Shown: one piece after another, positions 1 to 62,539 of the stretch
How positions within the stretch are numbered: position 1 is the first letter of the stretch
Layout: every line of letters starts with the position of its first letter
Source of the DNA: Bugula neritina
Taxonomy: Eukaryota; Bryozoa; Gymnolaemata; Cheilostomatida; Bugulidae
Direction of reading: 5' to 3'
DNA length: 64,000 nucleotides
Assembly (NCBI GenBank): GCA_964035545.1
Contig: OZ037766.1
Coordinates: 33,149,773-33,213,772 of the forward strand
Program-made: the position numbers and the translations under genes
Notes under the pieces: generated by a model
Databases searched by the model: none
What the model was told of the DNA's origin: nothing
What the model saw: only the letters and a program-made list of their open reading frames with translations

Positions 1-179
1 GTGGGAGTTAATGAGATCATTTAGTAGCCTAAGTATGTATGCACGTCATAATGTCACTAAATTTAGTTAATTCAACAATCTACAGGTACTAAGAAGAGAT
101 TAATAAACATTAATGTCACAATTTCTGGAGTGTAAGTTCCAACATAAACTCAACAGACATGGTTCTACTTCTCTACTAC

Positions 180-21242: not shown

Positions 21243-21475
21243 ATGATAAGCATGTCAATATATAATATATTGTATCACCTACTGATAAGCATGTCAATAT
21301 ATAATATATTGTATCATCTACTGATAAGCATGTCAATATATAATATATTGTATCATCTACTGATAAGCATGTCAATATATAATATATTGTATCATCTACT
21401 GATAAGCATGTCAATATATAATATATTGTATCATCTACTGATAAGCATGTCAATATATAATATATTGTATCATCT
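21243..21475. repeat. 39-bp minisatellite, six near-identical copies
   Basis: Unit begins TGATAAGCATGTCAATATAT and ends GTATCATCTAC; copies differ at only a few bases. Confidence 0.97.

Positions 21476-21540: not shown

Positions 21541-21614
<74 letters not shown>
21541..21614. repeat. (TA)n tract, left of the palindrome
   Basis: Uninterrupted TA dinucleotides directly abutting the palindrome's left end. Confidence 0.98.
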
Positions 21615-21619
<5 letters not shown>

Positions 21620-21647
21620 GAAGAAGTAAAATGAGATTTGATTAATA

Positions 21648-21716
21648 TAATGGCATTTATTACTAGTAGTTTCGTACACAAGAACAATGTGCACTCGTCA
21701 GATAAATTAGCCACTA
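21648..21716 (-). ncRNA. Type I hammerhead ribozyme, minus strand
   Basis: Mirror copy of the plus-strand ribozyme. Core CUGACGA lies at 21701-21695 and the predicted cleavage is after 21661. The only difference is in loop II (UUGUUCU), so all stems and core bases are kept. Confidence 0.82.
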
Positions 21717-21783
21717 GTGGCTAATTTATCTGACGAGTGCACATCGTTCTTGTGTACGAAACTACTAGTAATAAATGCCATTA
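21715..21783 (+). ncRNA. Type I hammerhead ribozyme, plus strand
   Basis: Core CUGACGA at 21730-21736 and GAAA at 21758-21761. Stem II is GUGCACA (21737-21743) with UGUGUAC (21751-21757) and loop UCGUUCU. Stem III is ACU/AGU (21761-21763, 21767-21769) with a 3-base loop. The cleavage site is GUA, after 21770. Stem I is UUUAU (21725-21729) with AUAAA (21771-21775), then an internal loop UAA/U, then UAGUGGC (21715-21721) with GCCAUUA (21777-21783). All conserved core bases are present, including G10.1-C11.1 and A15.1-U16.1. A very short stem III is typical of animal retroelement hammerheads. Confidence 0.85.
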
Positions 21784-21875
21784 TATTAATCAAATCTCAT
21801 TTTACTTCTTCTAATGTTTATGCTCTAGATTTATTTCTATAGAGCACTCTAGTAACGTTTTATAAACACTCATTT

Positions 21876-22021
<146 letters not shown>

Positions 22022-57911: not shown

Positions 57912-58580
57912 GTATTGCAGAGATTCTGAGAGAGAGAAAGGGGCAGCTCTTACAGAGAGCTGAGAGAGAGAGAGGGGCAGTTCTTACAGAGAGCTGAGAG
58001 AGAGAGAGAGGGGCAGCTCTTACAGAGAGAGAGAGGCAGCTCTTACAGAGAGAGAGAGAGAGGGGCAGCTCTTACAGAGAGCTGAGAGAGAGGGGCGGCT
58101 CTTACAGAGAGCTGAGAGAGAGGGGCGGCTCTTACAGAGAGCTGAGAGAGAGAGAGGGGCAGTTCTTACAGAGAGCTGAGAGAGAGAGAGAGGGGCAGCT
58201 CTTACAGAGAGAGAGAGGCAGCTCTTACAGAGAGAGAGAGGGGCAGCTCTTACAGAGAGCTGAGAGAGAGAGAGAGGGGCAGCTCTTACAGAGAGCTGAG
58301 AGAGAGAGGCAGTTCTTACAGAGAGAGAGAGAGAGAGAGAGGGGCAGCTCTTACAGAGAGAGAGAGAGAGAGGGGCAGCTCTTACAGAGAGCTGAGAGAG
58401 AGAGAGAGGCAGCTCTTACAGAGAGCTGAGAGAGAGAGAGGGGCAGCTCTTACAGAGAGCTGAGAGAGAGGGGCAGTTCTTACAGAGAGCTGAGAGAGAG
58501 AGAGGGGGGCAGCTCTTACAGAGAGCTGTGAGAGAGAGAGGGGCAGCTCTTACAGAGAGAGAGAGAGAGAGGGGCAGCTC

Positions 58581-58622
<42 letters not shown>

Positions 58623-60180
58623 CTCTTACAGAGAGAGAGAGAGAGAGAGAGGGGCAGCTCTTACAGAGAGCTGAGAGAGAGAGAGAGAGGCAGCTCTTAC
58701 AGAGAGCTGAGAGAGAGAGGGGCAGCTCTTACAGAGAGCTGAGAGAGAGAGAGAGAGGGGCAGCTCTTACAGAGAGAGAGGCAGCTCTTACAGAGAGCTG
58801 AGAGAGAGAGGCAGTTCTTACAGAGAGCTGAGAGAGAGGGGCAGCTCTTACAGAGAGCTGAGAGAGAGAGGCAGCTCTTACAGAGAGCTGAGAGAGAGAG
58901 AGAGGCAGCTCTTACAGAGAGCTGAGAGAGAGAGGCAGCTCTTACAGAGAGCTGAGAGAGAGAGAGAGGCAGCTCTTACAGAGAGTTGAGAGAGAGAGGC
59001 AGCTCTTACAGAGAGCTGAGAGAGAGGGGCAGTTCTTACAGAGAGAGAGAGAGGGGGGCAGCTCTTACAGAGAGAGAGAGAGAGAGAGAGAGGGGGGCAG
59101 CTCTTACAGAGAGAGAGAGAGAGGGGCAGCTCTTACAGAGAGCTGAGAGAGAGAGGCAGCTCTTACAGAGAGCTGAGAGAGAGAGAGAGAGGCAGCTCTT
59201 ACAGAGAGCTGAGAGAGAGAGGCAGCTCTTACAGAGAGCTGAGAGAGAGGGGCAGCTCTTACAGAGAGAGAGAGAGAGGGGCAGCTCTTACAGAGAGCTG
59301 AGAGAGAGAGAGGCAGCTCTTACAGAGAGAGAGAGAGGGGCAGCTCTTACAGAGAGCTGAGAGAGAGAGAGGGGCAGCTCTTACAGAGAGCTGAGAGAGA
59401 GAGGCAGCTCTTACAGAGAGCTGAGAGAGAGAGAGAGGGGCAGCTCTTACAGAGAGCTGAGAGAGAGAGAGAGGCAGCTCTTACAGAGAGAGAGAGAGAG
59501 AGAGAGGCAGCTCTTACAGAGAGAGAGAGAGAGAGAGAGGCAGCTCTTACAGAGAGCTGAGAGAGAGAGAGAGGCAGCTCTTACAGAGAGCTGAGAGAGA
59601 GAGAGAGGCAGTTCTTACAGAGAGCTGAGAGAGAGAGAGGCAGTTCTTACAGAGAGCTGAGAGAGAGAGAGAGGGGCAGCTCTTACAGAGAGCTGAGAGA
59701 GAGAGAGGCAGCTCTTACAGAGAGCTGAGAGAGAGAGGCAGCTCTTACAGAGAGCTGAGAGAGAGGGGCAGTTCTTACAGAGAGAGAGAGAGGGGGGCAG
59801 CTCTTACAGAGAGAGAGAGAGAGAGAGAGGGGCAGCTCTTACAGAGAGAGAGAGAGGGGCAGCTCTTACAGAGAGCTGAGAGAGAGAGGCAGCTCTTACA
59901 GAGAGCTGAGAGAGAGAGAGAGGCAGCTCTTACAGAGAGCTGAGAGAGAGAGGCAGCTCTTACAGAGAGCTGAGAGAGAGGGGCAGCTCTTACAGAGAGA
60001 GAGAGAGAGAGGGGCAGCTCTTACAGAGAGCTGAGAGAGAGAGAGGGGCAGCTCTTACAGAGAGCTGAGAGAGAGAGGCAGCTCTTACAGAGAGCTGAGA
60101 GAGAGGGGCAGTTCTTACAGAGAGAGAGAGAGGGGGGCAGCTCTTACAGAGAGAGAGAGAGAGAGAGAGAGAGGCAGCTC

Positions 60181-60214
<34 letters not shown>

Positions 60215-60790
60215 AGCTCTTACAGAGAGCTGAGAGAGAGAGAGAGGCAGCTCTTACAGAGAGCTGAGAGAGAGAGAGAGGCAGTTCTTACAGAGAGCTG
60301 AGAGAGAGAGAGGCAGTTCTTACAGAGAGCTGAGAGAGAGAGAGAGGGGCAGCTCTTACAGAGAGCTGAGAGAGAGAGAGGCAGCTCTTACAGAGAGCTG
60401 AGAGAGAGAGAGAGGCAGTTCTTACAGAGAGCTGAGAGAGAGAGAGAGGCAGCTCTTACAGAGAGCTGAGAGAGAGAGAGGCAGCTCTTACAGAGAGCTG
60501 AGAGAGAGGGGCAGCTCTTACAGAGAGCTGAGAGAGAGAGAGAGGCAGCTCTTACAGAGAGCTGAGAGAGAGGGGGGCAGTTCTTACAGAGAGCTGAGAG
60601 AGAGAGGGGGGCAGCTCTTACAGAGAGCTAAGAGAGAGAGAGAGGCAGCTCTTACAGAGAGAGAGAGAGAGAGAGGCAGCTCTTACAGAGAGAGAGAGAG
60701 AGAGAGGCAGCTCTTACAGAGAGCTGAGAGAGAGAGGCAGTTCTTACAGAGAGCTGAGAGAGAGAGAGGGGCAGTTCTTACAGAGAGCTG
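57912..60790. repeat. 2.9-kb purine-rich minisatellite (AGAGAGCTGAGAGAGAG..CAGCTCTTAC)
   Basis: Dozens of 25-45 bp units built from CAGCTCTTACAGAGAGCTGA plus a variable (AG)n run, with larger blocks repeated (for example around 59040-59300 and 59780-60000). The distal end overlaps the last codons and stop of the ABHD14-like gene, so on the minus strand every unit repeats CTCTGTAAGA, including the stop TAA and, incidentally, a GTAAGA donor-like word. Confidence 0.97.
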
Positions 60791-62539
60791 AGGAATTTCT
60801 GAAGCTCATGATGCCACACATAAGGCTGATCAATGTAACACGGATGTCCTGCGTCAGCAATGACTACCTGATGACCGAGAGGCAGCGCTTTTAACTTGCT
60901 GTAACTCGTTACCCCCAGTGAATGGTCGTTGGCTCCCTGGACTATCAGAGTTTTCAGCTAAAATACAGTTAATTAACAACTACATGGGCTATTTTACACT
61001 TACAGTGATTTCACTCTCTACCTTCTAACCTAAAGAGTGGCTTATTTAAGATATTCATCTATTACATCACAACATCGTGACAAACCAGTCTTATGTGACG
61101 TCACAGCAGTCACAATCTGCAAGTGCGTATTTAGTATTGTGGAACTGATATCCCTGAGTTTACTTTTGATGAACTTGTAAAGCAGAGATAGCAACTCTAA
61201 GCCAGCTACTGATTTCACTGCCATTGCGGTTTCATAGAGGAATGCGGGAACGTGTAGAGGCGCCCCTACCTTATCGAGAGCCCTGAAGTCCTCCGCAGAG
61301 TAAGTTGGAGATATGACTGGTGCCACAGGAATATAGCCAGCAATCTCGCTCCAGTACTCTGCATTCAGTACGTAGGGGACAGAGTACGTGCCCGACATGG
61401 ATGGACTGACCACAACTACTTTACTAAGATGTAGAGCCACGACTATGTTGTGCAGCATCACTCCCTTAGTGACATCTTTATTATGTCTACCTGTAGTTAT
61501 CATACAACACATGTACTAGTTGTATTCTATTGCATAGTCTAATACATAGTCTAACACATGTCCTAATACACTACAACAGTTTACATTGTAGTAACAAATA
61601 CACCACAACGGTTTACATAGTAATAACAAATACACCACAACAGTTTACATAGTAATAACAAATACACTACAACAGTTTACATAGTACTGTAACAAATACA
61701 CCACAACAGTTTACATAGTACTGTAACAAATACACCACAACAGTTTACATAGTACTGTAACAAATACACCACAACAGTTTACATGGTAGTAACAAATACT
61801 CACACTCTTTGTTAATGTTTATAGCAACAGCTCTATAGCCCCATTCTCTCAACTTAGCCATCGTTCCTGTTTGCTTGTTCCAGGTTGCAGCATCAAAAGC
61901 GGCCCCATGCAGCAGAAGTAGCTTGGGCCTGGAGCTATCTGAAATATCTCCATTCACTTCCTGGTAGGAAATTTCACAGCTCTGCAAGAGAAAGAAATGT
62001 GTTCCATACCAAATGATGGCAATGAACTATGAATTCCAAGCAAGACATGACTAGCGTACCTTCCCATCTGCATCTACTGTTACAGTCTTTGTCTCCAGAT
62101 GTAGTGTGAGTTTGTTCCCCTCTCCTGGGGAACCCAAATCTTCTTTATCCGACACACCACTGTCAGGGTTTAAATCCTGCAAGTAATGCAGTGTCATTTG
62201 CTAGTATGTTTTATCAACAAAGTATATACAGCTGCAAGCAAACAACTCAAAGTATGCTACACGTTTTAATTTGAAATTAGTAATTCTAAAAAAATATTTA
62301 TATCAAATATCAACCAATATAAAGATGTAAAATTCTTTCCACAACCAATTTCATTGAATAGTAACATCTGCTTGCACTTTGAATATTTTTACCTGAACTA
62401 CTTCAAAGGGAGGCTGTGGCTGCATTCCCGCTCTACTATTGGGCCGACTATTGGAGCGTATCAGCAGAAACAGAGCAGCCAATGAAAGCAAAGCTATTCC
62501 GAATTTGATGATCATGTTATCTCGCATAGCCATATTCAT
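60778..62539 (-). CDS. ABHD14-like alpha/beta hydrolase, five exons, 280 residues
   Basis: Serine hydrolase of the ABHD14 (CIB) family; ABHD14B in mammals removes acetyl groups from lysine, ABHD14A is membrane-anchored. Exons: 62539-62393, 62176-62060, 61981-61804, 61490-61270, 60957-60778; phases agree and the sum is 843 nt. Residues 10-28 (IIKFGIALLSLAALFLLI) form an N-terminal membrane anchor, as in ABHD14A. Then come LLLLHGAAFDAATW (oxyanion loop), the nucleophile elbow SPSMSGTYS, the acid Asp in VQGANDHSLG and the His in DAGHPCYIDQP. The exon 3 donor GAGT|GTGAGT was chosen because the alternative GA|GTGTGA gives a stop. The final codons LSSL and TAA are encoded within the terminal minisatellite unit. 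It converges on the ABCC gene. Confidence 0.94.
61556..61800. repeat. 34-bp repeat after the ABHD14 exon 3 donor
   Basis: About seven copies of ACAAATACACCACAACAGTT with TACATAGTACTGTA, starting right at the donor on the minus strand. Confidence 0.94.

Follow-up and report, generated by a model that had tools for sequence, protein, structure and literature searches.

The window analysed here, a stretch of 64,000 nucleotides (G000:C2:33149773-33213772 in the 215.8-Mb assembly), carries an inverted repeat of 100+100 bp with no spacer at 21616-21815. Its arms are 99/100 complementary, with a single mismatch, between 21745 and the position opposite it in loop II of a predicted hammerhead ribozyme, and Tandem Repeats Finder places TA repeats on both sides. 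An earlier note had described this spacerless 200-bp palindrome, its single loop II mismatch and its (TA)n setting, and that description held throughout. A tail, absent from that earlier description, is present on the right side only and is followed by the next TA run. The features are:

21541-21615, no strand: target microsatellite (TA)n, portion left of the insertion (Tandem Repeats Finder, 75 bp, 100%)
21616-21715, minus strand: left arm of the inverted repeat, an inverted, tail-less pLTR end with outer end ATTAGAAGAAG
21655-21707, minus strand: type I hammerhead motif, predicted cleavage after 21661 (RF00163 at 28.3 bits, below gathering, and descriptor match)
21714-21717, no strand: head-to-head junction CCACT/AGTGG, where the two arms share a TA at their ends and arm 5' ends cluster genome-wide
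21716-21815, plus strand: right arm, a pLTR end in sense orientation (56 genome matches)
21724-21776, plus strand: type I hammerhead motif, predicted cleavage after 21770 (RF00163 at 28.3 bits, below gathering, and descriptor match)
21816-21879, plus strand: 64-bp tail (GTTTATGCTCTAG...CTCATTTTACT), in full-length copies the putative 5'UTR between pLTR and ORF (tail core found genome-wide; pre-ORF position in L116 and L117)
21880-22020, no strand: target microsatellite (TA)n, portion right of the insertion (Tandem Repeats Finder)

The window as a whole (1-64000) is rich in minisatellites: Tandem Repeats Finder lists 142 rows for it when overlapping ones are included, and the longest spans 57930-60792. 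One of these, a 39-bp minisatellite of 5.9 copies with 99% match, lies left of the target TA repeat at 21244-21475, and each of its units contains a small inverted repeat, as read by eye. A 157-aa ORF on the minus strand (61042-61515), which we take to recall an alpha/beta hydrolase, had one protein-database match, a metagenome protein 85% identical over 68%; a Pfam search of three window ORFs, this one included, gave no match.

A type I hammerhead descriptor (CTGANGA, stem II >=4 bp, GAAA, stem III >=3 bp, UH, stem I >=5 bp) matched the 64-kb window exactly twice, once per strand, and had no match in 60 dinucleotide shuffles, which rules out a chance hammerhead. On both strands the descriptor found the conserved core with three stems and an open stem I, the motif of a type I hammerhead; the loose pattern CTGANGA...GAAA alone was not significant (5 matches against 3.3 expected). 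Rfam at gathering cut-offs had no match in the window, and in a permissive Rfam scan of 421 bases Hammerhead_1 (RF00163) headed the 14 listed matches on each strand at 28.3 bits (E 5.7e-5) against a gathering score of 34. The covariance model proposed as a check thus names a hammerhead as the best match on both strands, at a score below its cut-off. The earlier claim of a hammerhead with all three stems on each strand stands as a motif, but the minimum-energy fold of one arm has stems I and II and lacks stem III as drawn, with a stability within the shuffle range (z -1.5 and -1.1). The complete 200-nt strand is computed to form one 100-bp hairpin of -156.5 kcal/mol, compared with -15.3 for one arm; the duplex that the earlier note had offered in place of the ribozyme folds is therefore the favoured fold on paper, and for a transcript of either strand double-stranded RNA would be the likelier form. 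Across the genome the descriptor is intact in 58/67 complete right arms, placing the hammerhead, as a motif, in the pLTR.

The element from which the arms derive

Judged from its longer copies, the arm is the pLTR end of an endonuclease-type Penelope-like element (PLE), and the suggestion that two Penelope-type terminal units meet head to head in the window is upheld. Tandem copies elsewhere in the genome have the order pLTR, tail, 706-codon ORF, pLTR, tail. In three loci (L116, L117 and L118) the tail is followed by about 45 nt, an uninterrupted ORF and then the pLTR; the ORF spans 714 codons from stop to stop in each and 706 from the ATG in L116, and in L116 and L117 a second pLTR with its tail lies 2428-2429 bp downstream. 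Because the tail precedes the ORF in these three loci, we take it to be 5'UTR, the position it should have if reverse transcription starts internally and thereby gives rise to the integrated ends. The join of tail to ORF occurs at 3 genome sites (at most 3 mismatches) compared with 147 sites for the tail, so few copies appear to retain the ORF start along with its 5'UTR.

The pLTRs are in tandem in L116 and L117 and inverted in other longer copies, in which the inverted arms enclose RT/EN coding sequence. In one of these, L009, the 3' part occurs twice, inverted on the left and within a longer, sense-oriented copy on the right. Its 489-aa ORF has at least 3547 homologues at E <=0.001 (7994 candidates scored), and among the 120 listed, three of the named rows are corals and one is a bryozoan. 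In an AlphaFold2 model of an ORF homologue, telomerase was the closest fold resemblance, and from this homologue the element protein is predicted to be a telomerase-like RT; the fold matches did not extend over the C-terminal part. For GIY-YIG, PF01541 matched 4/40 homologues with a best E of 5e-4, which is weak support, and the ORFs of L009 itself had no PF01541 match at E <=1; VYQA and TYIG residues were noticed by eye only. Pfam on the L009 ORFs gave nothing exceeding the cut-off, NCBIfam profiles gave nothing near one, and a PDB search by sequence had no match. Of the GIY-YIG/RT Penelope ORF that the earlier note would have sought near other copies, a telomerase-like RT part is predicted from a homologue and the GIY-YIG part is weakly supported.

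Part of the inter-arm stretch of L010 (2100-4095) is by eye unlike the PLE sequence of L009 and L011, and is perhaps captured host DNA or another transposon. A candidate 28-kb element with C8 arms at 3598752 and 3626938 was rejected, as L034 on its own contains an inverted copy and L039/L040 are without arm, tail or body match.

Palindromes and insertion ends across the genome

The arm query gave at least 56 genome matches, with 40 first-look candidates scored out of 224. Many are minus-then-plus pairs, spaced from a slight overlap to 2.9 kb, and others are single in the fetched flanks. A head-to-head junction pattern with a spacer of 0-12 nt occurs at 26 sites genome-wide, so the idea that the palindrome in the window is unusual in this genome is not supported. 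With <=3 mismatches allowed, the 35-base tail core has 147 sites in the genome and its reversed control has 0. Tail-less ends adjoin TA repeats at 137 genome sites (<=1 mismatch) and tailed ends adjoin TA at 132 (<=3 mismatches), a figure that includes the L071 array and internal copies. This array (L071:1-1030, G000:C3:9893782-9894811) repeats the tail seven times with a period of 110 bp, every tail copy being attached to the 3' part of the hammerhead arm, and is satellite-like and made from the PLE end. L014 (2001-3850) has three insertions of the same PLE family within ~1.8 kb, two of which are palindromes with the junction seen in the window, one with its outer left arm shortened.

We sampled 3' ends from the 100 listed of the 147 tail sites, exact 35-mer matches first, and retained 90/100 rows, leaving out seven of the L071 array together with L053, L083 and L099. 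With array and internal rows thus left out beforehand, the tail is followed by a TA run in 89/90. By script, 45/90 sampled 3' ends belong to body-less head-to-head inserts, and six further such inserts were recognized by eye (L048, L057, L060, L061, L064 and L096). The 45 inserts have 38 different combinations of ends and junction, and most palindromes therefore seem to have formed separately. Three solo arms beside TA repeats, of which one carries a mismatch, have the appearance of one-ended events, and two (L008 and L028) are flanked by TA on either side.

End pairs were drawn from 100 listed tail-less ends, 100 listed tails and 12 further tails, taking those convergent within 6 kb. Of 62 pairs, 61 joined a tailed to a tail-less end, one was tailed at both ends and none was tail-less at both, leaving 49 tailed and 39 tail-less ends unpaired. 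Most mixed pairs (44/61) are <300 bp apart. The sole pair tailed at both ends (G000:C3:14446306-14446457) is 117 bp apart.

We then placed the inner ends of the arms on a scale with coordinate 0 at the A of AGTGGC (21716), giving 90 right-arm and 61 left-arm ends, seven of the latter read by eye and one, an L014 end at -46, false because it belongs to a neighbour's arm. On the right, 27 ends reach at least 60 nt into the body, 10 lie at -59..-4, 29 at -3..+2, 8 at 3..13, 10 at 14..91 and 6 at 92..100; on the left, 5 reach at least 60 nt into the body, 7 lie at -59..-4, 34 at -3..+2, 10 at 3..13 and 5 at 14..100. Among ends between -59 and 91, the six positions from -3 to +2 thus hold 29/57 on the right and 34/56 on the left (5 of these 34 read by eye), against ~2 expected on each side if ends were uniform. 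The cluster coincides with the outer edge of hammerhead stem I, away from the cleavage site, and the centre of the palindrome in the window is where cDNAs of this PLE habitually end.

Positions 50-59, around the cleavage site at 54/55, hold 3/90 right and 1/61 left ends; this disfavours hammerhead-cleaved RNA as the usual template and suggests that such RNA is rarely copied. A structural block explains the cluster poorly, because the RT must read through the entire hammerhead. A template 5' end at the outer edge of the hammerhead is a good and probable explanation, and the RNA 5' end that we deduce from the cDNA ends would then also be the transcription start. By eye, no clear TATA box was seen at the usual distance from it.

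Proposed insertion from both target ends and its alternatives

We consider the palindrome most likely to be a body-less PLE insertion into (TA)n, made by double-ended priming on the 5'UTR of an uncleaved RNA. In this route the element enzyme would cleave the TA repeat on both strands, and reverse transcription would be primed by one target 3' end where pLTR and tail meet (site A) and by the other at the tail end, 64 nt further 3' (site B), both sites lying in the 5'UTR of an RNA left uncleaved by its hammerhead. Both cDNAs would run to the RNA 5' end, about 100 and 165 nt away, placed at or 1-3 nt beyond the outer edge of stem I. Their 3' ends (...CCACTAT or slightly shorter) would then join via a short self-complementary overlap, here the microhomology TA. 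The six right ends at 92..100, that is, at site A, look as if a site-B cDNA had met a site-A cDNA, an arrangement that is suggestive only. The repeat target masks target-site duplications, which are unreadable in (TA)n.

Only tentatively do we entertain a narrower version, in which a single RNA serves both ends in a concerted double-ended target-primed reverse transcription, with sites A and B 64 nt apart and the 5' end at the hammerhead edge. If this were true, monomeric RNA would yield abortive palindromes only, full-length insertion would require a dimeric RNA that came from a tandem source copy and kept its hammerheads uncleaved, and the hammerhead would set the frequency of real copies.

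In 38 palindromes (33 compared by script, 5 set up by eye), arms differ by 0.0095 per site within a palindrome versus 0.0236 in shuffled pairs, with 0/1000 shuffles as low. Rare variants, those in at most two arms, are common to both arms in 6 cases and confined to a single arm in 25; for commoner variants the numbers are 28 and 10. This similarity fits one template or one source copy, so that one RNA, or two from one source copy, may have been reverse transcribed, and it could also have other causes, namely gene conversion between the arms or subfamily age. It also counts in favour of self-priming, in which the 3' end of a cDNA (or antisense RNA) loops back so that the molecule serves as its own template and a head-to-head repeat results, a route proposed for Penelope elements of the rotifer Adineta vaga with palindromes at such junctions (PMC3846280). 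We nevertheless find self-priming improbable, because fold-back of a tailed arm should copy the tail, yet the tail is one-sided in nearly every pair. The extents of the arms also speak against it. In 8 body-less inserts the tail-less arm is at least 20 nt longer than the tailed arm. For 7 of the 8, the inner end of the tail-less arm lies at -3..+2 and that of the tailed arm at 24-99, so that the tail-less arm has sequence absent from the tailed one. Only L097, among 9 strongly unequal body-less inserts, has the shorter tail-less arm. The insertion ends speak for reverse transcription begun at both target ends rather than for self-priming.

Two adjacent insertions in opposite orientation, or a later deletion or recombination between the inverted pLTRs of a longer element, are a distinctly unlikely source. 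Clusters of insertions do exist, as three tails within ~1 kb in L014 attest, but two insertions should bring two tails, a configuration found in 1/62 pairs, and the arms in the window have neither TA repeat nor tail between them. Deletion would be expected to leave random ends, whereas arm ends are concentrated in six positions and 38/45 body-less junctions are different.

Among body-less inserts, junction overlaps of 1-4 nt are the commonest (26/45), some overlap being expected by chance alone, and an extra 1-16 nt is inserted in 12. Some junctions recur, with CCACTAGTGG at 7/26 head-to-head sites and CCACTATAGTGG at 6/26, and the 200-nt strand is a stable hairpin, as might suit a mobile non-autonomous unit, retrozyme-like or MITE-like, that copies as a palindrome. 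We give this idea little credence: cDNA ends self-complementary over 2 nt would be expected to give the recurrent junctions, the outer ends are unlike by the tail, and 38 different junctions in 45 inserts suggest mostly separate origins, which also tells against the small self-moving palindromic element envisaged in the earlier note. A TIR DNA transposon or MITE is ruled out by outer ends that differ by the 64-bp tail in 61/62 pairs, and an assembly artefact is rejected, by argument rather than from reads, because a fold-back would mirror complete reads with their flanks, not 100 bp with a one-sided tail, and because the same form occurs at dispersed loci with different junctions.

Double-ended priming remains our preferred account of the palindrome. 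The element itself adds a member to a family already known, and its interesting part is the insertion record: many young-looking insertions lie in TA repeats, their ends are a natural record of insertion, and dozens of body-less palindromic scars inform how PLEs insert. The mode of PLE insertion and the role of the hammerhead are the question on which these scars bear.

Comparison with known systems

PLEs, pLTR hammerheads, inverted pLTRs and tails are already known. In the portions of the open-licence literature covered, neither body-less hammerhead palindromes nor a comparable census of end pairs was found. Penelope families of Adineta vaga, as described in PMC3846280, have in common with this element inverted pLTRs, an optional tail at one pLTR, palindromes at head-to-head junctions and AT-rich targets. 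The main text of that study makes no mention of hammerheads; it describes copies that enclose an ORF or captured DNA, several with TSDs, and explains the palindromes by self-priming on an antisense template. Animal retrozymes, according to PMC7229834, likewise have a type I hammerhead with a weak stem III in non-coding units and are expressed as small circular RNAs. Here, in contrast, the cDNA ends suggest templates uncleaved at the ribozyme, and a circular unit was not seen in the sequence.

A close known counterpart is PAc, a Penelope/Poseidon-type PLE of the lizard Anolis carolinensis (Frangieh et al. 2024, PMC11167929); that paper states that nobody had earlier purified a full-length PLE protein in active form. 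PAc has RT and GIY-YIG in one ORF, an organization that the present element may share, GIY-YIG being weakly supported here. Both elements have pLTRs with a hammerhead in the pLTR region, tandem copies, a tail between two internal RT starts and AT-rich targets. In vitro, PAc is reported to cut AT-rich DNA, with both target strands cut and extended, and to start reverse transcription at two adjacent internal sites, the interval between them being the tail; hammerhead mutants had no effect on insertion. The main RT start of PAc lies 111-118 bp inside the ORF, whereas here the tail is upstream of the ATG. The reported in vitro reactions showed no strand difference, whereas the genome analysed here pairs tailed with tail-less ends, and half of its sampled 3' ends are body-less and head to head. 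The in vitro work on PAc thus supplies the enzymatic steps, to which this genome adds a near-strict pairing of site to end and a probable 5' end of the template.
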